Source: Ruminococcus sp.
GTDB lineage: Bacteria > Bacillota > Clostridia > Oscillospirales > Ruminococcaceae
Direction of reading: 5' to 3'
Length of the DNA: 64,000 nt
Assembly (NCBI GenBank): GCA_017471405.1
Contig: JAFUTK010000056.1
Location: 34,928-98,927, forward strand
This document shows, one piece after another, positions 29,928 through 44,634 of the stretch. A program made the position numbers and the translations under genes. Every line of letters begins with the position of its first letter. Position 1 is the first letter of the stretch. The notes below the pieces were generated by a model. That model was not told the DNA's origin. It ran no database searches and saw only the letters and a program-made list of their open reading frames with translations.

Positions 29928-30003
29928 GCGCAAAACCGTGTCCCCGCCGTCAGGCGGGAGATATGCTTTTGCGTAACTCCGCCGAGCCGCCTAAGCGGCG
30001 AGG
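29928..30003. repeat. double-hairpin interspersed repeat, copy 6 (A then B)
   Basis: A degenerate module A (GCGCAAAACCGTGT with GATATGCTTTTGCG) and a good module B (CCGAGCCGC-CTAA-GCGGCGAGG), between tpiA and gpmA. Confidence 0.75.
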
Positions 30004-30055
30004 CTCCCAGTGAACAAACCCGCAAGGGAATCATAAACGAAAGGAACTTACAACT

Positions 30056-30805
30056 ATGAGCATGAAACTTGTACTTATCCGCCACGGCGAGAGCGAGTGG
30101 AACAAGGAAAACAAATTCACCGGCTGGACTGACGTTGAGCTGTCCGAGAACGGCGTTGAGGAGGCCAAGAAGGGCGGCCGCGCTCTTAAAGAGGCTGGCT
30201 TCGACTTCGACCTCTGCTACACCTCCTACCTTAAGAGAGCTATCCACACCCTGAACAATGTTCTGGCTGAAATGGACAGAGAGTGGCTGCCCGTTATTAA
30301 GAGCTGGAAGCTCAACGAGCGTCACTACGGTGCTCTGCAGGGTCTGAACAAGAGCGAGACCGCTGCAAAGTACGGCGAGGAGCAGGTAAAGATCTGGAGA
30401 CGTTCCTTTGATATTCCTCCCATGGCTCTGACCGAGGACGATGACAGAAATCCTGCAAAGGACCCCAAGTACCGCGAGGTTGACCCCAAGGAGCTGCCCC
30501 TTCAGGAGAGCCTTAAGGACACCATCGCAAGAGCTGTTCCCTACTTTGAGGAGGAGATCAAGCCCCAGATGAAGGCCGGCAAGCGCGTTCTTATCGCTGC
30601 TCACGGCAACAGCCTCCGCGCTCTTGTAAAGTACTTCGACAATATGAGTGATGCCGACATCATCAACGAGAACATTCCTACCGCTATCCCGCTGGTATAT
30701 GAGTTCGACGATGATTTCAAGGTGCTCTCCAAGAGCTACCTCTGCGACCCCGACGAGCTGGCTGCCAAGATGGCAGGCGTTGCAAATCAGGGCAAGGCTA
30801 AGTAA
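30056..30805 (+). CDS. gpmA: 2,3-bisphosphoglycerate-dependent phosphoglycerate mutase
   Basis: The 249-residue enzyme has the phosphohistidine motif [10 protein letters not shown] at the start, [10 protein letters not shown], and the second catalytic His in [10 protein letters not shown], as in cofactor-dependent mutases. It converts 3- to 2-phosphoglycerate. AAAGGAAC precedes the ATG. Codon bias matches pgk and tpiA. It follows tpiA across a hairpin repeat, and a strong terminator closes the cluster. gap and eno are not in the window. Confidence 0.97.
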
Positions 30806-30819
30806 TTTCAGACTTACAC

Positions 30820-30854
30820 AAAAAGGCTCCCCCTTGCGAGGGGGAGCTTTTTTG
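30820..30854 (+). terminator. intrinsic terminator after gpmA
   Basis: AAAGGCTCCCCC-TTGCGA-GGGGGAGCTTTTTT hairpin. Confidence 0.9.
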
Positions 30855-30903
30855 CCTATGCAATGTACACAAATCTAGTATAAAATTTTTTTCCAAAATC
30901 CTA

Positions 30904-30932
30904 TTGACAAACACAATATCTTGTGCTATAAT
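30904..30932 (+). promoter_or_regulatory. consensus sigma-A promoter of the NrdD-like small gene
   Basis: TTGACA, 17 bases, TATAAT, followed by a ~110-base leader before the start codon. Confidence 0.85.
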
Positions 30933-31051
30933 AATTCTTGCAGGCACAAATATGGGACAGTTGAGGTTTGCGGGCCTGTAAGAATATGAAACTTAAAGCT
31001 GCTTGACTATGCGGCTTGTAATATGAATTGAAACAAAGGAGTAATGGAAAA

Positions 31052-31327
31052 ATGGTAAACGTAAACGTTAAGAACGGCACACTGTCGCAGGCAGAGATTG
31101 ATGCATACATTGCAAGAGCCAACACCCTTTATCCGGGCAAGACCGTTGAGGCTATCGACCTCACAGTTGACGGCGAGTATGTTGATGTAGACTATCACTT
31201 TGCTGATATCCCCTTCCAGAGAATTCGTCGCATCACCGGATATCTTGTAGGAACCGTTGACCGCTTCAACAATGCAAAGCGCGCAGAGGTAGGCGACAGA
31301 GTTAAGCACGGAGTATCCGCTTCGTAA
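31052..31327 (+). CDS. short NrdD C-terminal (glycyl-radical) domain protein
   Basis: The 91-residue protein ends with RRITGYLVGTVDRFNNAKRAE and VGDRVKHG. This closely parallels the glycyl-radical end of class III ribonucleotide reductase NrdD (RRISGYLG ... FN.GK..E...RVKH). The N-terminal half (LSQAEIDAYIARANTLYPGK) has no match to the NrdD barrel, and the NrdD zinc cysteines are absent. It could be a stand-alone radical domain, by analogy with GrcA for pyruvate formate-lyase. That is inference. It has its own consensus promoter, AAAGGAG site and terminator, so it is a well-expressed single gene. Confidence 0.7.
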   Translation: MVNVNVKNGTLSQAEIDAYIARANTLYPGKTVEAIDLTVDGEYVDVDYHFADIPFQRIRRITGYLVGTVDRFNNAKRAEVGDRVKHGVSAS

Positions 31328-31348
31328 GCAAGCCTTATATCAGACGTC

Positions 31349-31383
31349 AAAGCCGGGCAGCAGAGAGCTGTCTGGCTTTTTTA
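31349..31383 (+). terminator. intrinsic terminator of the NrdD-like gene
   Basis: AGCCGGGCAGC-AGAGA-GCTGTCTGGCT stem followed by TTTTTT. Confidence 0.85.
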
Positions 31384-31404
31384 TGGCCTTTAAAGTGGTA
31401 TTCT

Positions 31405-31705
31405 TTCAGGGCGGGGCGCTCCTCACTTTGCGTACTGGGGGACGGAAAAACGTTCGCTGCGCTCACTGTTTCCTGTGAGTGCAGGACGGCAGCTTTTCGG
31501 CGCTGCGAAATGGTTTGTTCTTGATAACTTAGAGCAGTCGTAAAACGTAGTGCCTTTTCGTTTCTTGTCGCAGCGCCGTCTCGCGGCTGGCGCCGCGACC
31601 TGGGGCGCCGCCCCAGACCCTGCAAGGGCTCTGCCCTTGACCCGCAAGCCTCTAGCGCGAGGCTTGACCGCGCGCTTTTTAACGCGCTTCGCGTTCGTTA
31701 TCCTC
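31405..31705 (-). repeat. ~300 bp palindrome-rich interspersed element, copy 3 (inverted)
   Basis: Reverse-strand copy of the elements at 18930 and 23730, with the same order: AACGCGAAGCGCGTT, AAGCCTCGCGCTAGAGGCTT, CAAGGGCAGAGCCCTTG, GCGGCGCCAGCCGC, TTTCGCAGCGCCGAAAAG, GTGAGCGCAGCGAACG. It fills the gap between two convergent genes and begins 14 bases after the acylphosphatase stop. Confidence 0.82.
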
Positions 31706-31718
31706 ACAGCTGCGGTTT

Positions 31719-31988
31719 TTACCGTATCTCAAAGCTATGGTCATTGTGCACCGGTATGCGCTTGACCTCCATATCGGTGATGCACACAAACCTGCCGGAA
31801 CCTACTTGCTCAACTGTGCGGTCAATGGCGCTCTCCTCGCCCTCCAGCTCCGCCTCCACCGAACCGTCGTATTCGTTCCTCACCCAGCCGGAAACGCCGT
31901 TGCTGCGGGCGGCATAGTACATTCTGTACCGAAACCCCACTCCCTGAACATCTCCCCGAAAGACGATGTGCTTGCGTATCCTCTCCAT
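31719..31988 (-). CDS. acyP: acylphosphatase
   Basis: The 89-residue protein is of standard length. It has the phosphate loop GDVQGVGFRYRM (catalytic Arg in GFR) and GWVRNEYDGSVE (catalytic Asn), both diagnostic. It hydrolyses acyl phosphates such as carbamoyl or 1,3-bisphosphoglyceroyl phosphate. Its ATG lies one base after the stop of the upstream AlkZ-related gene, so it is last in a four-gene operon. Confidence 0.95.
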   Translation of the reverse strand: MERIRKHIVFRGDVQGVGFRYRMYYAARSNGVSGWVRNEYDGSVEAELEGEESAIDRTVEQVGSGRFVCITDMEVKRIPVHNDHSFEIR

Positions 31989-31989
31989 A

Positions 31990-32712
31990 TCACAGCGCCT
32001 CTCTGCGGATGGTCTTGTCGTCAGCCTCCGGGTAAAGCTCCCGCATACGGGTGATTATCCTCTCACCTGAGCGCTCCGGCTCCTCACCATAGCAGGAGGA
32101 CAGCAGCTCATACCCCCAGATGCTCTCCGGGGTCTGCAAGCCCGCCACCGGCATACCGTACTCCTCTCCCCGCTTGTTTTTACGGCGGCGAAAATTGGTG
32201 ATTACAAGGTAAAGCTGCATTTGCAGGTCCGTTATCATTCCGCTGAAATTTTTAAGCCCTCCCTTTCCGAAGCCGGCGAGGGATTTTATTTCATAGGAGT
32301 AGAGCCGCTCCTGCTTGTCGAACAGCTCCATTATAGCCTTTGCTCTGCCCTTGGCAAGCCCCTCCTCATAGAGGCTGTCAAAGTCGTAGCCGTCCCGGCG
32401 GAGGTTTGCGAACACCGGCAGCCAATCCAAGGATATGAAACCGGCCCTGCCCCGGAAGAACTTGCCGTATGCCACCTTGCCTGACTGTGCCGCCTGCTCG
32501 CGCCACTCCCATGGGTCGCGCTCGGCATTGCCTGTCCACCAGTAGCGCGCGTCGGCGTGTTCCTCAGCGGAAAAACCCTCGATATCGTTGGAGAACAGCG
32601 GCAGGAAGCCCACCCTGTTCACATATTCTATCAGCTCATCGCAGTTGTGTATCAGCGACTTGGAGCACGGAGATGCACCCTTCATTATCCATTCGCCGTT
32701 CTCGACTATCAT
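31990..32712 (-). CDS. AlkZ-related protein
   Basis: This 240-residue protein has GFLPLF, RYWWTG, RDPWEWRE, YGKFF and a YDFDSLYEEG segment. They recall the family annotated as AlkZ-related, distant relatives of HTH DNA glycosylases. No catalytic role is established for these shorter proteins. It is coupled by ATGA overlap to the HAD phosphatase gene upstream and is one base from acyP downstream. Confidence in the family is moderate and in a DNA-repair role low. Confidence 0.6.
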   Translation of the reverse strand: MIVENGEWIMKGASPCSKSLIHNCDELIEYVNRVGFLPLFSNDIEGFSAEEHADARYWWTGNAERDPWEWREQAAQSGKVAYGKFFRGRAGFISLDWLPVFANLRRDGYDFDSLYEEGLAKGRAKAIMELFDKQERLYSYEIKSLAGFGKGGLKNFSGMITDLQMQLYLVITNFRRRKNKRGEEYGMPVAGLQTPESIWGYELLSSCYGEEPERSGERIITRMRELYPEADDKTIRREAL

Positions 32713-33512
32713 TTTCCGTCCTCCCCGAAAAATCCGAAATGCTCCATTGCTTTGTATACGCCGTCGTGATGAATGTCGTCGGTGACGTAGCCGGCGTAGG
32801 GGATAAGCATTTTTCCGTTGCCCATGGCAATGCCGGTGCCTACCGCATCAAACATTGGCAGGTCATTGAGGCTGTCACCGATGGCGTAGGCGTCGCTCTT
32901 ATCAATGCCGTAATATGAAAGCACCGCGGTGATGCCGTAGGCCTTCGAGCAGGGCTTGGGTACTATCTCTGCAAAGCCCTCGCCCCTGTCTATCCAGAAG
33001 AAGTGCCGCTCTATCTCAGGACGCAGTCTGGCTATATCCGACCGTTCATCATAGCAAATTATGAACTTGTCAAAGGAGAAGTCCTTATCCTCCGTTGAAT
33101 GGGAGACGTCCTTGCCCTGTGCGGCAAAGTCGTCGCGGACAGCTCTTATCATCGGCATCTCCCGGCTCTGAATATCGAAGAGCACACAGTCCCGCCGCTC
33201 GTACATGGGGACGGCATCACATTCCCGCAGCAGCTCCACAGTTTCAAGGCAAAGCTCCCGGGAAACGGTGGTGTAGGATATTTCCTTCCCCTCGCAGAAA
33301 ATATTGGTGCCGCAGCCGCAAACATATCCGTCAAAGCCGAGGCTTGTGATGTCTGTGTTCACGTTGCAGAGGGGTCTGCCGGTGTTTATAAACAGCAGGC
33401 TCCCGGCGGTACGGGCAAGCTCCAAAGCCTTAACTGTGCTTTCGGGGACCTCCCCTCCCGGCTCCTCGGGAATTAGGGTGCCATCGATATCAAAAAACAT
33501 TATCTTGCGCAT
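32709..33512 (-). CDS. HAD-superfamily (Cof-type) phosphatase
   Basis: The 267-residue protein has motif I FFDIDGTLI, motif II INTGRPLC, motif III Lys in the SKAYGI region, and motif IV IGDSLNDLPMF. This is the type IIB (Cof) cap layout. Such enzymes dephosphorylate sugar phosphates or flavin-type metabolites with broad specificity. Its start codon follows the upstream hydrolase stop by three bases, with GGAGTAAACT as the ribosome site. Confidence 0.92.
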   Translation of the reverse strand: MRKIMFFDIDGTLIPEEPGGEVPESTVKALELARTAGSLLFINTGRPLCNVNTDITSLGFDGYVCGCGTNIFCEGKEISYTTVSRELCLETVELLRECDAVPMYERRDCVLFDIQSREMPMIRAVRDDFAAQGKDVSHSTEDKDFSFDKFIICYDERSDIARLRPEIERHFFWIDRGEGFAEIVPKPCSKAYGITAVLSYYGIDKSDAYAIGDSLNDLPMFDAVGTGIAMGNGKMLIPYAGYVTDDIHHDGVYKAMEHFGFFGEDGK

Positions 33513-33515
33513 AGT

Positions 33516-34283
33516 TTACTCCGTACAGCCCTCCGGCTGCTCTGTCAGAAATTTTTTCAGTTCCCTGAGGTATGCCCGCTTGCGGGAGCGGAGCATCTGA
33601 CCGTGGCCGAAGCCCCTGAACACCCTCACCCGCATATCCGGCAGATATTTTTCCAAAGCCCGGGCGCTGCGCTTGGGATAGGTCTCGTCGCTGCCGCACC
33701 AGTACTGCACAGCTCCGGTGTAGTCCTTGAGCTCCCTTGAGGGTCTGTAGGAATAGACCTCATTGCAGACGTTCTTTATTGTCTCCTCCTCAATGCCTCT
33801 GTAGATAAGGTCTGTCATTCCGGCGTTGCCCTTGCCGAACACCTTCTCCACTGCGATGACCGGCAGCTTATGCCCGTGCTTAAGGTAGTCGATGCCCTTG
33901 GTGAACAGCAGAGTGTAGGGTGTCTTCATCAGTCCAAGGCTGGTGCAGAAGGCGGCGTCCAGATGAACTCTATCTATGATGATATTCCCGCGCCTTATCA
34001 GCTCCAGCGTTACAGTCCCGCCCAGCGACATACCGCTGACGGCAAAGAGCCTGCCGCCGTACCGTCTGTTCACATACCGCTCTATATGCTCGCACTCCTG
34101 CTCTATGGTCTCAAAAATGCTGTTTGCGTAGGGGTCGTGCCCATCGAGGCAGGCAAGTATTACGCGGTAGCTTTTCGCAAGCTCGCGCGCAATATCAAGA
34201 TAGCATTTCTCGGCAGTGGTCGCCATTCCGTGAATGAGCATCACCGCCGGAGCGTCCACATTGCCCAGCAGCCGGAAGTTCAT
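33516..34283 (-). CDS. alpha/beta hydrolase
   Basis: The ~255-residue protein has the oxyanion segment LIHGMATTAE and the nucleophile elbow SGMSLGG (GxSxG). A late acid in CGSDETYP and a C-terminal GFGHGQML histidine complete a Ser-Asp-His triad. The substrate is unknown. The start is the second ATG of MSMNF, six bases after GAGAGGTG. It opens the operon hydrolase, HAD phosphatase, AlkZ-related, acyP. Confidence 0.85.
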   Translation of the reverse strand: MNFRLLGNVDAPAVMLIHGMATTAEKCYLDIARELAKSYRVILACLDGHDPYANSIFETIEQECEHIERYVNRRYGGRLFAVSGMSLGGTVTLELIRRGNIIIDRVHLDAAFCTSLGLMKTPYTLLFTKGIDYLKHGHKLPVIAVEKVFGKGNAGMTDLIYRGIEEETIKNVCNEVYSYRPSRELKDYTGAVQYWCGSDETYPKRSARALEKYLPDMRVRVFRGFGHGQMLRSRKRAYLRELKKFLTEQPEGCTE

Positions 34284-34329
34284 TGACATCACCTCTCTGT
34301 TGATCAGTATCTCCGTATTCCACATTAAT

Positions 34330-34358
34330 ATGATACCATTTTTACTCCCCTTTGTCAA
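34330..34358 (-). promoter_or_regulatory. sigma-A promoter of the hydrolase-HAD-acyP operon
   Basis: Minus strand TTGACA, 17 bases, TATCAT, 47 bases upstream of the start codon. Confidence 0.75.
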
Positions 34359-34363
34359 CGAGA

Positions 34364-34395
34364 GAAAAAAGCAGCCGGACGTAATGTCCGGCTGA
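34364..34395 (-). terminator. intrinsic terminator of the zinc-ribbon gene
   Basis: Minus strand CAGCCGGAC-ATTAC-GTCCGGCTG followed by CTTTTTT, just upstream of the next operon's promoter. Confidence 0.85.
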
Positions 34396-34412
34396 AATGC
34401 GCTTATTATTTC

Positions 34413-35255
34413 TTATCCTCTGATGATGAGGTTATCGGTGTTGGGGTTGTAAGCTACGCTGTAGCCCTTACCGTCGTTCATAAAGAAGTAGTAGAACTTA
34501 ACGGAGCCCTGAGCGGAATCCTCTGCTCTGAAGGTGTAGTTGTTAACACCTGTGTCGTTGTATGCCTTGAGAGCCTCAGCTATCTTGTTAACTATCTCGT
34601 CATTGTTTGCAGGAATATCTGCAACAGGAACGGAGGACTCATCGGGAGTGCTGCTGTCTGCAACGGACTCGTCCGGCTGGCTGGTCTCAGTAACGCTGCT
34701 GGTGTCGTCAGGTGTGGAAACATCGGATGTGCTGTCATCGGGAGCCTGAGAATCGTCAGTGCTGTCGGGTGTAGATACTGATGTATCGGCAGGAGCCGCA
34801 GACTGGCTATCCGGCTTGCTCTCGGGCAGCACCATGCTGCTGTTAAGAGCCGGCGCTTTTGAGTCGTCATTTCCCTTGCCGCCGAAAATCTTATAGCCTG
34901 CAAAGATAGCGATTATGACTATCAGCAGCACGCCGAAGGTGATTATTGCAGCTGTGATAAAGGTCTTCTTTGCTGCGCTCTCGTCGTAATCGTCATCGTC
35001 GTCATCATCGTAGTCATCGTCATCGTCATATTCGTCATCATCGTAATCGTCATAGCTCTGGCTCTGCTGCTGATTGCTGCTCTTCACAGCCTCCGCAGAG
35101 GAGAAGATTCTGGTGCGCTCGTCGTTATCGTTTTCGGGAGTATACTCTGCTGTTTCCTCCTCATCGTCCTCGGTGAGAAGGTTGTGGCAATATTTGCAGA
35201 GGATAGCATCCTCCGAGATTTCTTCATGGCAATAAGGACATTTCTTGGTGTTCAT
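34413..35255 (-). CDS. zinc-ribbon membrane protein with Asp-rich and Ser/Thr-rich linkers
   Basis: The 280-residue protein starts with a zinc ribbon (CPYCHEEI...CKYC) and passes through a near-continuous Asp/Tyr tract at about residues 65-92. It crosses the membrane once (TFITAAIITFGVLLIVIIAIFAG region) and continues outside as a Ser/Asp/Pro-rich stalk ending in a ~70-residue globular domain. Similar zinc-ribbon proteins are common in Firmicutes without known function. The poly-Asp tract comes from GAC/GAT codon repeats. The start is the ATG of MNTKKCPYC, after an AAAGGA site. Confidence 0.75.
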   Translation of the reverse strand: MNTKKCPYCHEEISEDAILCKYCHNLLTEDDEEETAEYTPENDNDERTRIFSSAEAVKSSNQQQSQSYDDYDDDEYDDDDDYDDDDDDDYDESAAKKTFITAAIITFGVLLIVIIAIFAGYKIFGGKGNDDSKAPALNSSMVLPESKPDSQSAAPADTSVSTPDSTDDSQAPDDSTSDVSTPDDTSSVTETSQPDESVADSSTPDESSVPVADIPANNDEIVNKIAEALKAYNDTGVNNYTFRAEDSAQGSVKFYYFFMNDGKGYSVAYNPNTDNLIIRG

Positions 35256-35488
35256 ACATTCCATTCCTTTCCGGTTTCCTGCCTCAGCCTGTGGGCATTT
35301 TGGCATTGTTTTACACAATATATAGTTATCTGTATATAAATATAACACATATTTCGGCAAATTGCAATAGCAAATAGAAATTTTTTTAATTTTAGCATAT
35401 CATTAAAACAGAGCGCACATAATTGTGAATTTTTATTGAAATAGTACACCTGATGACATTATTTGTATTATCTGTCCTCCCTGTCGGC

Positions 35489-35517
35489 TTGAAATCTTCC
35501 GCAGAATATGTTATCAT
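35489..35517 (+). promoter_or_regulatory. promoter of the GTPase-nuclease fusion gene
   Basis: TTGAAA, 17 bases, TATCAT, 32 bases upstream of the start codon. Confidence 0.6.
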
Positions 35518-35548
35518 TATCACAGCAAGAAAAATATGGGAGGGCGCT

Positions 35549-38125
35549 ATGAAAAAGGCTGTCATCGGCATACTCGCTCACGTTGACTCGGGCAAGACCA
35601 CCCTTTCCGAGGCGATGCTCTTCACCTGCGGAGCCATCAGAAGGCTGGGGCGTGTAGACCACAAAAACACATTCCTTGATACTGACGCCATCGAGCGGGA
35701 CAGAGGGATAACCATATTCTCCAAGCAGGCGCTCTTTGAGTACGGCGACACTGCCTTTACCCTGCTGGATACTCCCGGGCACGTTGACTTCTCCGGTGAG
35801 ACGGAGCGGGTGCTCTCGGTCATAGATGCGGCAGTGCTGGTGGTAAGCGGCGTCAGCGGGGTGCAGAGCCATACCCGAACACTGTGGAGGCTTTTGGAGC
35901 GCTACGGCGTCCCCACCTTCATCTTCATAAACAAGACGGATATGCCCGGAGCGGATAAATCCACCGCTATGCGGGACATTGAAGCGAAGCTAGGCCCCTG
36001 CTGCGTTGATTTCTCCCGCCCCAGGGAGGAGCTGCTGGAAAGCCTTTCCCTTTGCAGCGAGCCGATGCTTGAGCAGCTGCTGGACACCGGAGACATCTCC
36101 GATGAACTGATAAAGGAGGCAATATCGGAGCGCCGGGTGGTGCCCTGCCTTTCCGGCTCAGCGCTTAAGTCCGAGGGCGTGGAGCGGCTACTCTCCCTGC
36201 TGGATAAATTTATCACCGTACCGGAGCCCCGGGAGAGCTTCGGCGCCAGAGTATTCAAGATAACCACCGAGGAATCAGGTGCGAGGCTAACTCATATGCG
36301 CATCACCGGCGGGAGCCTCTCTGTAAGGGACGCCGTTGCCTACACCTCTCAAAACGGCGAGGAGCTTACTGAGAAGGTCAGCCGCATACGTATATACAAC
36401 GGAGAAAAATTCCGTAGCACCGAGACTGTCTCTCAGGGAGAGGTCTGCGCGGTGCTGGGGCTTTCCGCCTGCCCTGCGGGACAGGGTCTGGGAGATGAGG
36501 AAAGCGCGCAGGCTCCCTCGCTTACGCCGGTGCTTAACTACAGCGTCTTGCCGCCGGAGGGGGTGGACACCCACAGAATGTTGGGTATAATGCGCACCCT
36601 AGAGGCCGAGGACCCCACCCTGACCGTAGGCTTTAACGAGCAGACCGGCGAGATAACTGCCTCTCTTATGGGAGAGGTGCAGCTTGAAGTCCTCTCCCGG
36701 ATACTCTCCGAGCGCTTCGGAGTAGATGCCCGATTCGGTGAGGGCAGGATAGCCTACTGGGAGACCATAGCCGAGCCTGTGGAGGGTGCAGGGCATTTCG
36801 AGCCCCTGCGCCACTATGCTGAGGTGCACCTGCGTTTGGAGCCCCTGCCACTGGGCAGCGGACTGGAATTTGACAGCGAATGCAGAGAGGACACCCTCTC
36901 CCGCAACTGGCAGAGGCTTATCCTCACCCATCTGCGGGAGCGGGTACACAAGGGCGTGCTGACAGGCTCACCTATCACAGATATGAGGATAACCCTGACC
37001 GCCGGCAAGGCACATCTAAAGCACACCGAGGGCGGAGATTTCCGGCAGGCTACATACCGCGCCGTAAGGCAGGGGCTTAGATATGCCAAAAGCGTGCTGC
37101 TGGAGCCCTATTACAGCTTCCGGCTGGAGATACCGGCCTCCGCCACCGGCAGGGCTCTGACCGACCTTGAACGCCTCGGCGCGGAGATAGACCCTCCCGA
37201 AACGCAGGAGAGCCTCACCGTCATCACCGGCAGAGCGCCGGTCTCTAAGCTGAGATACTATCACACCGATGTGGCGGGCTACACCAAGGGCGAGGGCAGG
37301 CTTTACTGCGAGGCTGCGGGCTACGGCATCTGCACCGAACAGGAAAAGGCCGCAGCCGAAAGCGGCTACGACCCTGATAATGATATTGCAAATACGGCGG
37401 ATTCTGTGTTCTGCTCCCACGGGGTGGGGCACACCGTCCCCTGGAACGAGGCCAACGCCCTTATGCACGTGGGTCCCGAAGCAAGAAAAAGAAGCGAGCA
37501 GCAGGCGTTGGAGCTTAAATCCCGGGCTGACAGCTTTGTGCGCCGCGCCGCCGAGGACGAAGAGCTTATGGCTATCTTCGAGCGCACCTACGGCACCATC
37601 GACCGCAAAAGGCGGGACGCTCTCCACACTCCCAAGGAGCCGCCAAGACAGAAACAGAAGCCGGTACCCCTGCCCAAGGGGCCGGAATATCTGCTGGTGG
37701 ACGGCTACAACATCATCTTCGCCTGGGAGGAGCTCAAACGCCTTGCGGACAAGAGCCTAGACCTTGCCCGCAACGAGCTAATCAACCGCCTATGCAGCTA
37801 CCGCGGATTTAAGCAGTGTGAGCTTATACTGGTGTTCGATGCCTACCGCGTTAAGGAGCGGGAGCGAAGTGTTGAGAACATCAGCGGCATCAGCGTGGTC
37901 TACACCAAGGAGGCGGAGACCGCCGACAGCTACATCGAAAAGACCGCTCACGACCTCTCAAAGGGACACCGCGTTCGGGTAGCCACCTCCGACGGGCTGG
38001 AGCAGGTCATCATAATGGGAGACGGCGCGCTGAGGGTCTCCGCCAGCGAGTTCAAGGCAGAGGTTGAACAGGCAGAGCGTGCCGTTAAGGACTTCATCGA
38101 GGGGCTGGGAAGGCAAAGGCTGTGA
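35549..38125 (+). CDS. Tet(M)-like ribosomal GTPase fused to a Rae1/YacP-like A-site endoribonuclease
   Basis: The 858-residue protein has two parts. Residues 1-~640 are a translational GTPase of the Tet(M)/Tet(O) ribosome-protection type: G1 AHVDSGKTT, switch I RDRGITIF, G3 DTPGHVDF, G4 NKTD, then EF-G-like domains II-V (PLPLGSGLEF; TYRAVRQGL). Residues ~711-858 are a NYN/PIN nuclease close to B. subtilis Rae1 (LLVDGYNII, LVFDAYRV, TKEAETADSYIEK, ATSDGLEQ, GALRVSA), keeping all four acidic residues. Rae1 cuts mRNA in the ribosomal A site. A basic, proline-rich linker joins them. The domain IV tip lacks the YSPV loop of Tet(M), so tetracycline resistance is unlikely. I infer a ribosome-rescue or quality-control enzyme. 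Confidence 0.9.
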   Translation: MKKAVIGILAHVDSGKTTLSEAMLFTCGAIRRLGRVDHKNTFLDTDAIERDRGITIFSKQALFEYGDTAFTLLDTPGHVDFSGETERVLSVIDAAVLVVSGVSGVQSHTRTLWRLLERYGVPTFIFINKTDMPGADKSTAMRDIEAKLGPCCVDFSRPREELLESLSLCSEPMLEQLLDTGDISDELIKEAISERRVVPCLSGSALKSEGVERLLSLLDKFITVPEPRESFGARVFKITTEESGARLTHMRITGGSLSVRDAVAYTSQNGEELTEKVSRIRIYNGEKFRSTETVSQGEVCAVLGLSACPAGQGLGDEESAQAPSLTPVLNYSVLPPEGVDTHRMLGIMRTLEAEDPTLTVGFNEQTGEITASLMGEVQLEVLSRILSERFGVDARFGEGRIAYWETIAEPVEGAGHFEPLRHYAEVHLRLEPLPLGSGLEFDSECREDTLSRNWQRLILTHLRERVHKGVLTGSPITDMRITLTAGKAHLKHTEGGDFRQATYRAVRQGLRYAKSVLLEPYYSFRLEIPASATGRALTDLERLGAEIDPPETQESLTVITGRAPVSKLRYYHTDVAGYTKGEGRLYCEAAGYGICTEQEKAAAESGYDPDNDIANTADSVFCSHGVGHTVPWNEANALMHVGPEARKRSEQQALELKSRADSFVRRAAEDEELMAIFERTYGTIDRKRRDALHTPKEPPRQKQKPVPLPKGPEYLLVDGYNIIFAWEELKRLADKSLDLARNELINRLCSYRGFKQCELILVFDAYRVKERERSVENISGISVVYTKEAETADSYIEKTAHDLSKGHRVRVATSDGLEQVIIMGDGALRVSASEFKAEVEQAERAVKDFIEGLGRQRL

Positions 38126-38129
38126 GGAC

Positions 38130-38861
38130 TCACTGCTCCGTCAGGAATTTTAATATACCATCAGCGATGACGAAGCCCACCTCCCGCTGATAGGACATAG
38201 ATTCCAGCTTAGCCGCCTCCTCCGGGTTGGAGAGAAAGCCGCACTCCGCCATCACAGCGGGACACTGTGCATTGTGGATAAGAAACAGCTCATCGCCCAC
38301 CGGCTTGGTCTCCCTCTCGTTCTCCGGCTGGAGGTGGTTGCGGAAACGCTCCTTTAAGGTTTCAGCCAGACGGAGGCTTTCGTCGCTGTCAGCGCGGTAG
38401 AACATCTGCGCGCCGTGATACTGGGGGTCGGTGAACTGGTTCTGATGTATCGACACCGCCAGCAGCGCCCCACTGCCGTTGATGACCGCAAGGCGGTTGT
38501 CCATATCGGATATTTTCTGCCGGCGCAATCCCTCGATGCCCGCATCGTGGATAGAAACGTCGGTCTCTCTGGTGCAGACCACGTTATACCCCAGCAGCGA
38601 GAGGATATCCCGGGTGGTAAGCATAATGGAGAGGTTTATGCCCTTTTCCGGGACGCCGTCCACCGAGACACAGCCCCCATCGGCGCCTCCGTGACCGGCA
38701 TCCAGCACGACGGTGGGACGCTCCACCACAGCAGAGGCGGAAGCGGCGACGCTCTCTGCTCCCTTTTTAACGGCGTTTTCGGCTAAGTGTCCTCCTATCA
38801 CTCCTGTGGCGAGGACTGCCCCCGCGCAGAGGTATGTCATAAGCTTCTGTTTCAGCTTCAT
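38130..38861 (-). CDS. N-acetylmuramoyl-L-alanine amidase, CwlD-like
   Basis: The 243-residue Amidase_3 enzyme has an N-terminal membrane anchor or signal (residues ~8-28). Its zinc and catalytic motifs are VVLDAGHGG, the Glu in EKGINL, His in SIHQNQF, and the late Glu in MAECGFLSN. It cleaves the lactyl-amide bond of peptidoglycan. Length and layout match CwlD of spore-formers, which makes muramic delta-lactam, but related non-sporulation amidases exist. Its stop lies four bases from the convergent fusion gene. Confidence 0.88.
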   Translation of the reverse strand: MKLKQKLMTYLCAGAVLATGVIGGHLAENAVKKGAESVAASASAVVERPTVVLDAGHGGADGGCVSVDGVPEKGINLSIMLTTRDILSLLGYNVVCTRETDVSIHDAGIEGLRRQKISDMDNRLAVINGSGALLAVSIHQNQFTDPQYHGAQMFYRADSDESLRLAETLKERFRNHLQPENERETKPVGDELFLIHNAQCPAVMAECGFLSNPEEAAKLESMSYQREVGFVIADGILKFLTEQ

Positions 38862-38972
38862 AGCAATGCTCCCTTCAAAATAAAAGTGTCAGTAAATAAT
38901 ATGCTCGCCTGTCCGGAATATGCACAGGCGGGCATTATGTTTTGTATATTCGTCTATGCTGCCGATTATCAG

Positions 38973-39050
38973 GCGGAAAAAGTATTCCCCCGCCGTCAGG
39001 CGAGGGAGATACTTTTTCCGCAAGTCCCGAGCCGCCGCCGGCGGCGAGGG
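38973..39050. repeat. double-hairpin interspersed repeat, copy 7 (A then B)
   Basis: Module A arms GCGGAAAAAGTATTCCC and GAGATACTTTTTCCGC. Module B CCCGAGCCGCC-GCC-GGCGGCGAGGG. It lies in the 364-base gap between the amidase and the DUF4358 lipoprotein. The rest of that gap holds their promoters. Confidence 0.9.
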
Positions 39051-39156
39051 CAGAAAAAGGAACAGAATGAAATGCTGCTTGGGTCTGGTTATGTTTTTTG
39101 TCAACCTTTGCGGAAACTAACTATCATACAAGGGGCATCTTTAGCATTTATTACTA

Positions 39157-39185
39157 TTGAATTTATAGGCACGTGATGGTATAAT
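39157..39185 (+). promoter_or_regulatory. sigma-A promoter of the DUF4358 lipoprotein
   Basis: TTGAAT, 17 bases, TATAAT, 40 bases before the start codon. Confidence 0.75.
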
Positions 39186-39225
39186 ATCCTTATAAATGAT
39201 AAAATACAAATGAGAGGACAACATT

Positions 39226-39810
39226 ATGAAAAAACTGACAGCAATACTTGTAGCTCTCTGCCTGACGCTGGCTCTTGCCGGATGCGGAAGCGGGGAAAGC
39301 TCCTCCGAAAAAGAGGAGAGCAAGCCCTCCGAGAGCGTGACACAGACCACTCCCAAGGAGACAGACAGCCTCTCCGAGGACACCTCCTCCGAAGTGGAAC
39401 AGACCGTAGAAAGCAAGCTGCCCGCACTGGCGGAGAAGCTGGCTGCCGACTATCCGGAGGTATTCACCGGCTCGGCGCTCTACGGCAGCGCGGTGTTTGA
39501 AAAGAACTGCAAAAAGCTCTTTGCCTGCGAAGCTACTGACCTTAAGGACGGAATGATAATCTTCAGCAACGGCGGCGGCATCGCAGATGAGGTATCGGTG
39601 GTCTACCCTGCCGACGGCAACGCCCAGGGACAGACTAAAATGCTGGAGGCCCGCAAGGAGATCCGTTACGGCGACTTCAACGGCTACGTCCCGGAGGAGC
39701 TGCCGAAGATAGAGGCCGGCAAGGTCTTTACCGTCGGGGACGCAGCGGTGCTCATCATCTCTGATGACGCGGACGCCATCGAAAAAACAGTAAGAGAAAT
39801 ACTGGGATAG
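39226..39810 (+). CDS. DUF4358 lipoprotein
   Basis: The 194-residue precursor has a signal peptide with lipobox LALAGC (Cys20) and a Ser/Thr/Glu-rich linker to about residue 65. A ~125-residue domain with LFACEATDLKDGMIIFS and MLEARKEIRYGDFNGY follows, the DUF4358 pattern found in exported Clostridia lipoproteins. Function is unknown. It has its own promoter and a GAGAGG site, and a hairpin repeat separates it from the next gene. Confidence 0.8.
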   Translation: MKKLTAILVALCLTLALAGCGSGESSSEKEESKPSESVTQTTPKETDSLSEDTSSEVEQTVESKLPALAEKLAADYPEVFTGSALYGSAVFEKNCKKLFACEATDLKDGMIIFSNGGGIADEVSVVYPADGNAQGQTKMLEARKEIRYGDFNGYVPEELPKIEAGKVFTVGDAAVLIISDDADAIEKTVREILG

Positions 39811-39831
39811 TACAGACGGCTGTAAATCCAA

Positions 39832-39909
39832 GCGGAAAAACGGTATCTCCCCCCGCAGGGGGAGAATACCTTTCTCCGCACCTTCCCGAGCCGCCGCAGG
39901 CGGCGAGGG
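39832..39909. repeat. double-hairpin interspersed repeat, copy 8 (A then B)
   Basis: Module A arms GCGGAAAAACGGTATCTCCCC and GGAGAATACCTTTCTCCGC. Module B CCCGAGCCGCC-GCA-GGCGGCGAGGG. It follows the DUF4358 gene by 21 bases. Confidence 0.9.
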
Positions 39910-39928
39910 CTTACTGAAAGCGGAGAAA

Positions 39929-39982
39929 ACCGAATTGCAAAAATGAACCCGTCTCGTGTTTAGGGGTAATTTTGCAATCGGC
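39929..39982 (+). promoter_or_regulatory. structured leader of the transglutaminase-like gene
   Basis: CCGAATTGCAAAA pairs with TTTTGCAATCGG across a ~28-base interior that contains an ACCC/GGGT pairing. It sits 32 bases before the start codon. Without a downstream T run it looks more like a 5' leader structure than a terminator. Confidence 0.4.
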
Positions 39983-40013
39983 TGACTGAGATAACAGAAA
40001 AGGAGAACAAAAA

Positions 40014-41240
40014 ATGAAAACAAACGTAACTAAGCGCATCTGCGCGGCTGCGGCGGCACTTATGATGCTTTCCTGCACAGCCTGCGCTAACAGCGACAGC
40101 AGCTCCGAAAGTGAAAAGGAGAAGGAGACCACTACCACAACCACCGCCAAGACCAATGAGGAAAAGGCAAGCTCCGACAGCAATGAAAGCTCCGGTGACG
40201 GCTCCGAGCTTATCAAGAGCCTGACCGACAAGATCAAGGAGCTCTCCAACCGCCTTGACGATCTTGAAGAGAACGGCAATTTCGACTTTGATGAGGATAT
40301 CCACGAGGTGTATGACGACACCGCCGTGGTGGAGGCCTACAAGAAGAAGGACCCCTCCGGTCTTACCGACAGCAAGGACAAGTACATATACGACTGCCTT
40401 GTGAAGGCTGTAGACGAGATCATCGAGGACGGTATGACCGACTACGAAAAGGAGCTGGCGGTCTACAATTATATGTTCGACGCCACCCGCTACAGCTATG
40501 AAAACCTGAACCCCATCGACCTTGACGACGAGGAGGACTGGTCCCACACACCCTATGGCTTTTTCACCACCGGTCAGACCATCTGCGTGGGTAATGCCAC
40601 CACCTTTAAGCTGTTTATGGACGTTCTGGGCATCGACTGCGAGATAATCCACTCCACTGAGGAGGGCGAGCACGCCTGGAATATCGTAAAGATCGACGGC
40701 GACTGGTACCATGTTGACCTGACCTTCGACAACGGCGACAAGCACCCTCTCTACAGCAACTTCAACGTCACCGACGCTTTGAAGATGGAGATGAGCTACC
40801 CCTGGAACATAGAGGACTTCCACGAGTGTACCTCCACCAAGTACAACTATATGGTAATGCACGCCGTAGACTGCGACGATATCTATGCTCTGCCAAAAAT
40901 GCTTAAGGATACTCTTGACAAGGGCGAGAATGTGCTCTATGTTACCCTTAAGAATGAAGACAGCACAGAGCTTTACTCTACTATCTCTGAGCTCTCCGAC
41001 ATATACTATGCCATAGAAAGTGACCGCTACAGCATAACCGCCGGTGAGCCGCTGTTCAACGATGACTACACCGAGGCCACACTTGCCATTGAAATCACCG
41101 ACATCACTGAAATTGATGACGATGACTACCCCGACTACCCGGAAGAGACCATTGACATTGATAAGCTGGCTGATGCCTTCAACGATGCCTTTGACGGCGA
41201 GATAACAATCTCCGACGGAAGATACTACTGGGATTGGTAA
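40014..41240 (+). CDS. transglutaminase-like lipoprotein
   Basis: The 408-residue precursor has an N-terminal signal (about residues 8-27; SCTAC offers a lipobox-like cysteine), a Ser/Thr/Glu-rich linker, and a transglutaminase-core fold. The catalytic Cys is in GQTICVGNATTF, His in GEHAWNIV and Asp in WYHVDLTFD, so the triad is complete. Exported members act as proteases or peptide cross-linking/hydrolysing enzymes on the cell surface; the substrate here is unknown. The last ~150 residues are acidic and lack a recognised domain. A bidirectional terminator follows. Confidence 0.85.
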   Translation: MKTNVTKRICAAAAALMMLSCTACANSDSSSESEKEKETTTTTTAKTNEEKASSDSNESSGDGSELIKSLTDKIKELSNRLDDLEENGNFDFDEDIHEVYDDTAVVEAYKKKDPSGLTDSKDKYIYDCLVKAVDEIIEDGMTDYEKELAVYNYMFDATRYSYENLNPIDLDDEEDWSHTPYGFFTTGQTICVGNATTFKLFMDVLGIDCEIIHSTEEGEHAWNIVKIDGDWYHVDLTFDNGDKHPLYSNFNVTDALKMEMSYPWNIEDFHECTSTKYNYMVMHAVDCDDIYALPKMLKDTLDKGENVLYVTLKNEDSTELYSTISELSDIYYAIESDRYSITAGEPLFNDDYTEATLAIEITDITEIDDDDYPDYPEETIDIDKLADAFNDAFDGEITISDGRYYWDW

Positions 41241-41249
41241 TAATACATA

Positions 41250-41290
41250 TAAAACGACCTCCGGGCTGCCTGTCCGGAGGTCGTTTTATA
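41250..41290. terminator. bidirectional intrinsic terminator
   Basis: AAAACGACCTCCGG and CCGGAGGTCGTTTT arms, between two convergent genes. Confidence 0.9.
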
Positions 41291-41304
41291 TTTGATGGAT
41301 AGTT

Positions 41305-44300
41305 TTAGCTATGAGTTACTTCAATGCTGTTGAGAGTAAATCTGTTGCGGCTGCCGGTAAAGCTAAGCCCCTCCTCCGAGAAGATGTCGGAGCCTATCTT
41401 GTTGTGGACCGTCCACTTGACGTCACTATTGATGAAGGAGATGCTCTGCTTGTCGTTGTAACCGCCCACTGCCAGCGCCTGGTCGCCGGAGTTCTCTATT
41501 TTCAGCACCGAACCGGTGAGCTCCAGCTCTGTCCTTCCGGTGAGGGCGCCTATGCCTGTGAGCCGCACAGCGCTCAGACTTATCATCAGGCTGGACTCTA
41601 TTACCTTAGTGACGGTGCTCTGCCCGTAGAGGGTGCCTATACCCGCATTGCTGCTGCCGTCGCCGTAGAGCTTAAACGCGCAATTGGCTATGAGCACCTC
41701 CGCATTGCCGGAGACAGACCCCACTCCGACACCGTCGGTGGCGGCAAATTCCAGCGAGATGTTGCAGCTGCGAAGCTCCGCCTTCGTCTCCCCCTCAAGA
41801 GAGCCGATGCACACGCCCTTGTTGCCGTTGGCCTCCAGCACATAAAGCCCGCTGGCTATCTTTATCTCGCCGCCCAGCCCGGAGCCTATGCAGACGCCAT
41901 TGGTGCCGCGGCCCAGTATCTCCACCGAGCCGGTGGGCTCGAAGAACAGCTGCCCGTGCTTCTCCCCGGCGGGAGCGCCGATACCGTAATATTCGGGAGA
42001 GTTCAGCTGTAATCTGATGCTGCCGCCGCCCTCCACAGTGAGCGAGGCCGTTTCGGGGACGTAGATGCCGGTGTTGTGCAGTATATTTTCGCCCACAATC
42101 ACCAGCGTCACCTCAGCGTCCTTTTCAAGCTCTATGCAGGGACGGTTCTTGACGTTGGAGAGGTAAGCATCCTCCAGAGTTATCCTGCCGGAGTAGCCGG
42201 CCTCCACCCTGATATGTATATCCGTTTTCAGGCCGGGAGTGCCGATAACGGCGATATCCTTGTAAACCATAGTCCCCTGCCCCACGACGATCTCGGTGCA
42301 GCCTGACCTTGCCAGTGAGGACAGCGATACTCGGTTGGTCTTTCCGGCGATGTATATCTGGTTGGCAGTGCCCTCCACCTTCTCGCGGTGGAACTGCCTG
42401 ATTTCTTTTCTTACTCGCTCATCTATCTCACTTATGAAGGTGTCCTTGGGGGTGCCGGTGTAGTAGCCTTGGATAAGGTCAGCTCCCATATAGATGACCT
42501 CCCGCAGCTCGTCCACCGTCTCAACTCCCTCCGCCAGAGCCTTGATGCCGTTGTCGTGGCAGAAGTCTATTACCTCCCGGACAAAGTGCTGCTTCTGGGG
42601 CTTATCCTGTATCTCGCTCAGAAGTGCGCGGTCTATCTTGACGTAGTTGGGCATATACCTCAGCAGGTTATTGACGTTTGAATAGCCGGTGCCGTAGTCG
42701 TCGATGGCGGTCTCTATGCCCAGCCTCTCGAAGAAGCCCTTGAGACGGTCCAGATCCTTGTCGTTGAGCTCCGCCTCTTCGGTAAGCTCCACCACCACGC
42801 TGTCGGAGAGCTCTTCAAAATAGCTCTCCAGAGTATCGAAATCTCTGTCGGTTACCCGAACTCCGGGTATGCTGTTGATGAATACCTTTCTGCCGTTCAG
42901 CCTGTCCCTGTTCTCAGCCACTGCTTTGAGGACATTTAAGAAGGTGGCCTTTTCAACGTCAGCAAGGCGCCCCTGCATATCGGCATACTTGATTATCAGC
43001 AGCGGAGGCAGATACTTTTCGGTATTGGAGCGCATCAGCGCCTCGTAGGAGTAGATACCGCCGTCGGTGGTGTTGACAATAGGCTGGAAGCGGTAGGAGA
43101 ACAGGTTATCCTCCAGCACCTTCTCCACCAGGTCGTAGTCGTGCTTCTCCCCGTCGGAGAGGCTGTCGTAAAGCACACGCAGGTCGGCGAATTTGTTGCT
43201 CTGTATCTTCTCCAGCTGCTCGGTGACGTTCTGCATCACCAGATAGCGCCTGAGATTTTCAAAGGCTCGGGATACCAGCCCTATCCAGCGGCGGTAGTTG
43301 GCATCGTAGCTCCTTGCCTCATTTCCGTAGGAGACCACAGCATAGCCAAAGCACTGGTCCTCACAGAATACAGGCGTGAAGAAGTAGGCCGCGGGAGCGT
43401 CCCTCTTCTCGGAAAGCTCCGGCAGCAGAGCGCTGCGCTCAAAGGTGTTGTAGAGCCCTACGTGGCCGTCCTTGCGGTCCCAGTTGTACCTGACGGCATA
43501 GATCATCTTGGCAGGGTAGCCGTCGCTCTTGATGTGCAGCCTGAAATCGTGCTCCATATTCTTCCACGGAGCCGAAAGGCAAAGGTGAAAGCTCTTAGCC
43601 CCTCTAATCTGATAGGCATAGGAATAGATGGTGCCCAGATACTCATTCAGAGAGGTCTGAGCCATCAGGTTCTCCACCATAGTATTGTTGACGGAATCGT
43701 AGCCCTCCTCAGAGATCTCGGTGTCCCAGCGGTCACGCTTAAGGGTAAACTCGGGGATAGTGGTCTCCCTGCAGCCGCAGCTCTCGCCTATGACCAGCTT
43801 TGACTTGACATCGAAGGGAGGGGTCTCCCTGCCGGCGAGCTTATCGAAAATGTACTGCGCCGAATACTCTCCCACCTCCTCGGCGGGTATCATTGATGAG
43901 GTTATGGACTTGGGCGCCGTCTGCCCCTCGAAGGAGGAGTCATAGCTCAGAACTGCGATGTCCTCCGGGATGCGGCAGCCCCGCTGTGTCAGCCCCTTGC
44001 AGAGACCTATAGCCATAGGGTCGTTGGCGCAGACCACTGCCTGAGGCAGCTTGCCCTTTGCCAGCAGCTGCTCGGCGCAGAGCTCACCGCTCTGATACCA
44101 GAAGTCTCCGTAGATGACCCTGTCCTCCGGGACGGTCAGCCCGTGAGCCGCCATTGAGTCCCGGTAGGCCTGCAAGCGCTGCTGGGAGTGCTTGTGCCAG
44201 CGTTTACCTGTCAGGAAGGCGATATCCGTAAAGCCGTGTACCTCGATGAGGTGGTCCACCAGCTCCACCACTGCGCTGTAGCCGTCGGTGAATACGCTGG

Positions 44301-44634
44301 GGAAGTAGGGGCTGTCCTTCTCGATGACCAGCACAGGCTTGCCCTCAAAGCTCTCGTGGAGACGCTCCTCAAGGCGCTGCGCCTCGCCGGCGGTCTGGAT
44401 AGTATCCTCAAGAATCACCACTCCGTCAAAGGCAGAGGGCTCCACCAATGTAAATATATTAGCCTCGCCGCGCTCACGCTCGACGGTGTCCTGATATTTT
44501 CTGTACATCGAAAAGATACAGACGTCCATATCAAAGCCGAAGGCCTTTTTCAGAAATCCTGAGATAAAGCTGCTCTGGTATGCCTCGTCGGCCTGTCCGA
44601 CAAGCAATGCGATGCGGGTCCTGCGGTCTGCCAC
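41305..44634 (-). CDS. sugar-sensor / EAL phosphodiesterase / beta-helix fusion protein
   Basis: The 1109-residue protein lacks signal peptide and membrane helices, so it is cytoplasmic. Residues ~5-285 are a LacI/periplasmic-binding-like sensor without the LacI helix-turn-helix. A ~200-residue middle part is GAF-like in layout. Residues ~500-745 form an EAL domain with its catalytic set intact: E531 (EAL), N587, E616, D645-D646 (DDYGTGYSN), K666, E702 and Q722, so it should hydrolyse c-di-GMP. Residues ~760-1095 are glycine-patterned repeats ([AV]CIGS..GE, GVGVGSVSG, AGIGTLYG), consistent with a right-handed beta-helix. It starts with GTG after AGGAGG, behind a TTGCAT-17-TATAAT promoter. Confidence 0.85.
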   Translation of the reverse strand: MADRRTRIALLVGQADEAYQSSFISGFLKKAFGFDMDVCIFSMYRKYQDTVERERGEANIFTLVEPSAFDGVVILEDTIQTAGEAQRLEERLHESFEGKPVLVIEKDSPYFPSVFTDGYSAVVELVDHLIEVHGFTDIAFLTGKRWHKHSQQRLQAYRDSMAAHGLTVPEDRVIYGDFWYQSGELCAEQLLAKGKLPQAVVCANDPMAIGLCKGLTQRGCRIPEDIAVLSYDSSFEGQTAPKSITSSMIPAEEVGEYSAQYIFDKLAGRETPPFDVKSKLVIGESCGCRETTIPEFTLKRDRWDTEISEEGYDSVNNTMVENLMAQTSLNEYLGTIYSYAYQIRGAKSFHLCLSAPWKNMEHDFRLHIKSDGYPAKMIYAVRYNWDRKDGHVGLYNTFERSALLPELSEKRDAPAAYFFTPVFCEDQCFGYAVVSYGNEARSYDANYRRWIGLVSRAFENLRRYLVMQNVTEQLEKIQSNKFADLRVLYDSLSDGEKHDYDLVEKVLEDNLFSYRFQPIVNTTDGGIYSYEALMRSNTEKYLPPLLIIKYADMQGRLADVEKATFLNVLKAVAENRDRLNGRKVFINSIPGVRVTDRDFDTLESYFEELSDSVVVELTEEAELNDKDLDRLKGFFERLGIETAIDDYGTGYSNVNNLLRYMPNYVKIDRALLSEIQDKPQKQHFVREVIDFCHDNGIKALAEGVETVDELREVIYMGADLIQGYYTGTPKDTFISEIDERVRKEIRQFHREKVEGTANQIYIAGKTNRVSLSSLARSGCTEIVVGQGTMVYKDIAVIGTPGLKTDIHIRVEAGYSGRITLEDAYLSNVKNRPCIELEKDAEVTLVIVGENILHNTGIYVPETASLTVEGGGSIRLQLNSPEYYGIGAPAGEKHGQLFFEPTGSVEILGRGTNGVCIGSGLGGEIKIASGLYVLEANGNKGVCIGSLEGETKAELRSCNISLEFAATDGVGVGSVSGNAEVLIANCAFKLYGDGSSNAGIGTLYGQSTVTKVIESSLMISLSAVRLTGIGALTGRTELELTGSVLKIENSGDQALAVGGYNDKQSISFINSDVKWTVHNKIGSDIFSEEGLSFTGSRNRFTLNSIEVTHS

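Follow-up and report, generated by a model that had tools for sequence, protein, structure and literature searches.

What would a translation factor do with a ribonuclease on the same polypeptide chain? The question is raised by a gene of Ruminococcus sp. that lies in a stretch of 64,000 nucleotides of contig JAFUTK010000056.1 (the window, to which all coordinates refer). Its product, P0001, joins a translational guanosine triphosphatase (GTPase) of the EF-G/Tet type to a NYN nuclease of the YacP/Rae1 type. According to PMC6613710, Rae1 is an endoribonuclease of the ribosomal A site, and its access to the site may increase when ribosomes stall. We give a probability of about 0.5 to the reading that the fusion is a translational GTPase that carries the nuclease of Rae1 and does its job, probably by cleaving messenger RNA (mRNA) in the A site of stalled ribosomes. 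This reading draws on comparisons of the protein with its fused, unfused and standalone relatives and on the near absence of a separate rae1 gene from genomes that possess the fusion.

The 858-residue protein is encoded by one uninterrupted frame, whose start at 35549 is preferred over an in-frame ATG at 35453 because a ribosome-binding site, GGGAGGG, lies ahead of it. Frame and Pfam layout agree with the sequence-only reading of this DNA, according to which a complete EF-G/Tet-type GTPase is followed by a C-terminal YacP/Rae1-type NYN domain:

35549..38125, + strand: GTPase-NYN fusion gene, 858 residues, a single open frame that begins with ATG 35549 and includes the stop codon (38123-38125); GGGAGGG at 35538-35544
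35561..36214, + strand: GTP-binding domain, residues 5-222 (GTP_EFTU, PF00009, E 2.4e-49), with AHVDSGKTT, RGIT, DTPGH and NKTD
36215..36739, + strand: EF-G-type domains II and III, residues 223-397 (EF-G_D2, PF22042, residues 232-310, 25.5 bits, below the cut-off of 27; EFG_III, PF14492, residues 326-397, E 4.2e-13)
36743..37087, + strand: domain IV, residues 399-513, which in TetM and EF-G extends into the A site (EFG_IV, PF03764, E 8.9e-21)
36791..36817, + strand: domain IV loop GHFEPLRHY, residues 415-423 (pattern GH[FY]EPL[RK]HY)
37022..37045, + strand: domain IV tip HTEGGDFR, residues 492-499, aligned with SPVSTPADF of TetM
37094..37345, + strand: domain V, residues 516-599 (EFG_C, PF00679, E 1.3e-14)
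37346..37468, + strand: C-terminal extension with FCxxG...VxW motif, residues 600-640, supported by motif counts and model confidence
37478..37684, + strand: tether, a helix at residues 644-681 followed by a hinge with little order that ends near residue 712, supported by model confidence and low identity
37685..38122, + strand: NYN (YacP/Rae1-type) nuclease domain, residues 713-858 (NYN_YacP, PF05991, residues 715-849, E 2.8e-49, 167.7 bits against a cut-off of 24.6)

The GTPase half thus has the five-domain architecture of EF-G, with domain II slightly under the Pfam cut-off. Its G motifs are all present, as had been claimed, and AHVDxGKTT, RGIT, DTPGH and NKxD are kept in 36 aligned fused sequences, that of the window included. 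In a sequence search of the PDB, TetM (3j9y, E 3.2e-78) was the best solved match, and the NYN part matched Bacillus subtilis YacP (5mq9, E 8.7e-27).

The architecture itself is already published. Passages of Atkinson 2015 (PMC4342817) state that Tet proteins of ten Clostridiales species gained a YacP-like NYN ribonuclease domain and guess at a new mechanism of antibiotic resistance by ribonuclease activity. Those proteins likewise unite a Tet-like GTPase with a YacP-like NYN domain and come from the same broad bacterial group, so that the window protein is a further member by architecture. Among open-licence PMC papers (titles and abstracts), no other paper on the fusion and no test of its function was found.

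A scan of genome contigs yielded at least 595 relatives, of which 80 were kept as named loci. At 79 of these 80 the GTPase and NYN sequences share a single frame, for which reason the fusion is not an assembly artefact; two of the 79 (L118 and L148) stop at a contig end and lack the N-terminal part. The exception, L086, has the two parts in different frames on a short contig. One fusion gene (L203, genome G190) contains a single in-frame stop although its genome is a single contig, which points to a read error or a decaying copy.

Whether the appended domain is still an enzyme can be judged from nine active-site positions, D718, N721, D764, T791, D793, E797, T813, D815 and Q819 in the window protein. 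All nine are conserved in 55 of 55 fused proteins (the window's included) and in 30 of 30 standalone Rae1 proteins, the latter taken from 34 loci whose remaining members carry fusions; the claim that the NYN domain keeps the conserved residues of Rae1 is thereby borne out. In a wider set, the window protein and 76 named fusions longer than 800 residues, the first six are found in 77 of 77 sequences, D815 and Q819 in 76 each (tyrosine in L097 and arginine in L151, respectively) and T813 in 75 (serine in L107 and L121). The domain would thus be under selection as an enzyme almost throughout.

Another part of Rae1 has gone. Standalone Rae1 proteins end in a basic tail, L[EDQ]xxR[RKL], which sits at a near-fixed distance of 67-70 residues from the core. 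The motif lies within the last 14 residues of all 30 standalone proteins and of none of the 55 fused ones, and over the last 12 residues the net charge averages +2.5 in the former and -0.1 in the latter. When LExxR[RKL] is allowed at any position within the last 45 residues, it occurs in 3 of the 76 named fusions, of which one or two may be remnants. B. subtilis YacP aligns with the standalone tail as EKLRR, residues 162-166, up to R166, and R166P is listed in PMC6613710, in the passages concerned, among rae1 alleles that suppress an efp deletion and are read as loss of function. The tail would on this evidence anchor Rae1 to the ribosome, and the GTPase would have made it superfluous.

The same exchange is suggested by the distribution of the genes, which we surveyed in a class sample of 393 genomes and a phylum sample of 398. 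The class sample contains a NYN_YacP match in 250 genomes and a GTPase of the fusion's clade (E 1e-50) in 164, and is sorted into 136 genomes with the fusion, 29 with an unfused GTPase and 228 with neither. Sorting was by frame length in the listed rows, unlisted or doubtful cases being searched again; nine genomes were counted as fused despite a contig edge or frameshift (G044, G062, G071, G156, G172, G185, G190, G235 and G295), the fragment in G203 was placed with the unfused and that in G261 was left out of the class table. With standalone rae1 obtained by subtraction (genomes with NYN_YacP minus fused genomes), 1 of the 136 fused genomes keeps such a gene against 113 of the 257 others (Fisher p 1.6e-24, kinship ignored in all counts and p-values). 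The phylum sample has 28 fused genomes, 8 of them shared with the class sample and 20 new, and 7 unfused; none of the 28 (0 of the 20 new) has a standalone rae1, against 187 of the 370 others (Fisher p 1.6e-8). A test proposed with the sequence-only reading, the loss of separate rae1 where the fusion exists, thus came out in its favour. That a common fusion, present in about a third of the class genomes, nearly excludes the separate gene is new here, as are the findings in this text on the clade and its domain IV tip, on the active-site positions and on the lost tail.

Because the NYN residues are kept while separate rae1 is nearly absent and the basic tail is lost, the data suggest that the GTPase has replaced the tail as ribosome anchor, and the functional reading is partly supported by this replacement and loss. 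It is less probable, though worth weighing, that two independent functions merely share a chain, the NYN domain performing the housekeeping decay of Rae1 and the GTPase a ribosome task of its own, with no control by GTP. The long, poorly conserved and disordered hinge between the parts would suit such an arrangement, as would the separate existence of unfused GTPases and standalone Rae1. Against it stand the missing tail, which would leave the NYN domain without its own presumed anchor, and the finding that no class genome of the 393 has both a fused and an unfused GTPase (E 1e-50).

How often the fusion arose was examined in a tree of the first 600 residues of the 55 fused, 29 unfused and 12 other Tet-like proteins. 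The tree includes 19 of the 76 named fusions longer than 800 residues (every fourth locus number) and omits L186, L187 and L188 (cut or broken), L032 (the window copy) and L049 (a fragment); its 29 unfused rows do not correspond to the 29 class genomes with an unfused GTPase and include the plasmid proteins L224 and L226 as well as L048. A further set, A3, comprised P0001 together with 61 of the 72 named candidates. In the tree, a branch with full support in the Shimodaira-Hasegawa-like approximate likelihood ratio test (SH-aLRT 100) separates all fused proteins, joined by a single unfused one from a Lactobacillus salivarius megaplasmid, from the remaining 28 unfused proteins; a slower analysis of 43 rows under a mixture model recovers the same branch with 100/100. 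The L. salivarius protein is inside the fused clade in both trees, and the fused rows alone form a clade in 0 of 200 bootstrap trees; its placement as sister to the fused clade is not rejected by the approximately unbiased test (p 0.314). It has either lost the NYN domain or branched off before the fusion. For the origin of the fused NYN domain itself, the NYN tree offers only 140 columns and 2 changes. The fusion seems to have arisen once, and the simplest history would be a single fusion in an ancestor that had separate GTPase and rae1 genes, followed by loss of the free rae1. The gene of the L. salivarius protein (L224:3511-5902, megaplasmid pMP118 of strain UCC118) adjoins a gene annotated as rpsN, for the 30S protein S14, on the opposite strand, and a link to ribosome variants is possible.

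The GTPase half, to which the ribosomal position of the nuclease would be owed, differs from TetM-type proteins at the tip of domain IV. In place of the TetM loop SPVSTPADF the window protein has KHTEGGDFR. The tip HTxGGDFR is shared by all 55 fused proteins and by 28 of the 29 unfused ones, is found in none of the 12 other Tet-like ones and recurs in 76 of 76 named fusions longer than 800 residues; a second domain IV loop, GH[FY]EPL[RK]HY, is distributed likewise (54/55, 24/29 and 0/12). SPVSTPADF occurs in 0 of 55 fused proteins and in 2 of the 12 other Tet-like ones. Domain IV is also the most conserved part of the fused proteins, with a mean pairwise identity of 0.738 among the 55, as compared with 0.581 for the G domain, 0.565 for the C-terminal extension, 0.559 for NYN, 0.489-0.527 for domains II, III and V and 0.223 for the tether (residues 643-712). 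Since the unfused relatives have the same tip, recognition appears to be older than the fusion, and the target of the tip, whatever its nature, would predate the addition of the nuclease.

These observations bear on the explanation that Atkinson 2015 suggested and to which the database names point, tetracycline resistance by ribosomal protection with the ribonuclease as an accessory. The sequence-only reading had taken the loss of the TetM tip (YSPV) as an argument against it. The loss is real, but as an argument it is weak alone, for the S508A single mutant and the S508A/P509A/V510A triple mutant of Tet(M) can be active according to the relevant part of PMC4750697. The stronger argument is the different and nearly invariant tip that fused and unfused relatives have in common. 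P0001 moreover scores 417.8 bits with the NCBIfam model tet_protect, against a cut-off of 775, and a gene present in one third of the sampled class genomes would be more core-like than acquired. For the resistance explanation speak the rank of TetM as best solved match, the tolerance of substitutions in SPV and the labels of plasmid relatives, 13 of 15 of which, among the matches listed, are assigned to the TetM/TetW/TetO/TetS family (2 of the 15 are fused and 13 unfused). On balance we disfavour it and consider it the least probable of the explanations weighed here; the labels on these 13 plasmid relatives may then be wrong for the whole clade. Among open-licence PMC papers, none was found that tests this clade for tetracycline resistance. 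An identity of the unfused clade with TetB(P) was looked for with an unfused class protein as query, and no Clostridium perfringens record appeared among the best 40 of 1351 plasmid matches.

In TetM the C-terminal helix lies near the decoding region. After domain V the fusion has an extension with an FCxxG...VxW motif, which is shared by all 55 fused proteins and 26 of the 29 unfused ones and is absent from the 12 other Tet-like proteins. The alignment with TetM (3j9y) extends to residue 634, and in the structure model the predicted local distance difference test (pLDDT) is 86-91 over residues 600-640 and 39-69 over residues 641-710 (both in blocks of ten). Fold searches gave EF-G relatives and TetM among the structural matches, all for the GTPase part, with no NYN rows among those listed.

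From these parts a working sequence can be composed, which we hold more tentatively than the general reading above. According to parts of PMC8161019, Tet proteins overlap the EF-G site and extend into the A site. From its fold and family, the GTP form of the Tet/EF-G body would bind the factor site and place domain IV in the empty A site of a paused or stalled ribosome, where the HTxGGDFR tip would read the decoding centre. Hydrolysis of GTP would pull domain IV out, and the NYN domain, mounted on a helix and flexible hinge after the C-terminal extension, would enter the vacated site and cut the mRNA. Such a hand-over, or a cut elsewhere on nearby mRNA, is needed because domain IV and NYN cannot both occupy the A site. 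The protein would on this proposal be a GTP-gated A-site nuclease that inspects ribosomes whose A site is empty and passes the vacated site to its NYN domain, and that may have replaced Rae1 in many Clostridia after one fusion in which the tail was traded for a GTPase. If this is correct, mRNA decay in many Clostridia would be linked to the ribosome and timed by GTP. The recognition and anchoring of Rae1 would also become testable, evolution having swapped the tail for a factor with a well-known binding site.

Several points weigh against the view that the fusion does the job of Rae1 at the A site. Domain IV and NYN would compete for one site, which makes their simultaneous action unlikely, and the model does not fix the position of NYN (predicted template modelling score 0.67, hinge pLDDT 39-53); residues 817-821, beside the active site, have a pLDDT below 50. 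R166P might only destabilise Rae1, which would be an alternative to the reading of the tail as an anchor. The NYN domain of L097, without an aspartate equivalent to D815, may be an inactive nuclease. The Fisher p-values overstate the evidence, because the fusion seems to have arisen once and few independent events stand behind the counts. One class genome, G284 (L217), has both the fusion and a standalone rae1, the latter after rlmB; the NYN sequence of G284 forms a long branch and has retained the basic tail. In addition to its fusion, G370 has two further NYN matches, both short and scoring 26.5 and 21 bits, which were not counted as a rae1 gene. In the window's own genome the fusion is the sole NYN_YacP match, but that genome is only 64% complete, so that its lack of rae1 is weak evidence. 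Finally, rae1 is missing from 7 of the 29 class genomes with an unfused GTPase (G025, G028, G054, G068, G178, G203 and G288, all with no NYN_YacP match) and from 3 of 7 such genomes in the phylum sample, and rae1 occurs without a GTPase of the fusion's clade in 91 of 228 class genomes. As each is found alone, the two generally do not need each other, and the unfused GTPase may have a task without need for Rae1. The association between them is weak: rae1 accompanies the unfused GTPase in 22 of 29 class genomes against 91 of 228 (p 3e-4, kinship ignored) and in 4 of 7 genomes of the phylum sample.

The neighbourhood of rae1 introduces a further explanation, in which the fusion is a maturation or quality-control factor that brings a ribonuclease to immature or damaged ribosomes and cleaves ribosomal RNA (rRNA) or transfer RNA (tRNA). 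In three rae1 genomes examined (G060, G180 and G284) the gene order is rlmB, encoding a 23S methyltransferase, then rae1 and a sigma-factor-like gene recognised by eye, and a role of the NYN domain in rRNA and tRNA maturation has been proposed, as cited in the passages of PMC4342817 concerned. Opposed to this is the nature of the characterised relative, Rae1 being described as an A-site mRNA endonuclease (PMC6613710, relevant passages). In the fused genomes G018 and G299, rlmB stands directly before the sigma-factor-like gene with no rae1 between them; in four others, the window's own included, a different frame follows rlmB. In the window genome rlmB lies on contig C42, ahead of another frame, and the fusion on C38, hence not directly after rlmB. 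When the frames flanking the fusion at the named loci and in the window were clustered, no family was shared by more than 9 loci out of up to 81; many loci had short flanks, and loci without a relocated gene were skipped. The surroundings of the fusion are thus neutral, and we regard the rRNA/tRNA explanation as improbable, somewhat more so than two unconnected functions. A conserved operon context, considered as a candidate, is not supported by this clustering, and no RNA leader or riboswitch with an Rfam match at gathering score was found in window positions 30000-44000.

There is likewise little sign of an acquired element. As a mobile resistance gene the fusion was rejected: with tblastn, only 2 of 72,556 plasmid records cover at least 80% of P0001, and these are replicons of 518 kb and 252 kb. 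Among 50,697 phage records the fusion was found in 2, both unannotated faecal 'Bacteriophage sp.' entries (MT835563 and MT835514) that hold the whole fusion at 53% and 47% identity and may be misfiled bacterial contigs.

Compared with the nearest known systems, the fusion has the NYN sequence and conserved active-site residues in common with B. subtilis Rae1/YacP (PDB 5mq8 and 5mq9), from which it differs in that its NYN domain sits behind a GTPase, is not beside rlmB and lacks the basic C-terminal tail. From TetM and TetO it is set apart by the other domain IV tip, the FCxxG...VxW extension, the nuclease and the score under the NCBIfam cut-off. The unfused clade (for example LSL_RS10690 of L. 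salivarius pMP118) has the same tip and extension in most members, but ends shortly after the extension and has no NYN domain. RelE-type toxins and SmrB also cleave mRNA in or near the ribosome, and we know of none that is joined to a translational GTPase. If the proposed model is true, the protein would to our knowledge be the first translational GTPase with an mRNA nuclease of its own.

Two other genes of the window were noted. The frame at 41305-44634 (- strand) encodes 1109 residues, in which a LacI-type sugar-binding domain precedes an EAL domain; some 380 residues after EAL have no Pfam match, and the Pfam search gave no DNA-binding domain. The frame at 34413-35360 (- strand), which adjoins the fusion and has no Pfam match, shows by eye CxxC motifs close to the beginning of the protein, together with a strongly acidic stretch and a probable membrane helix.

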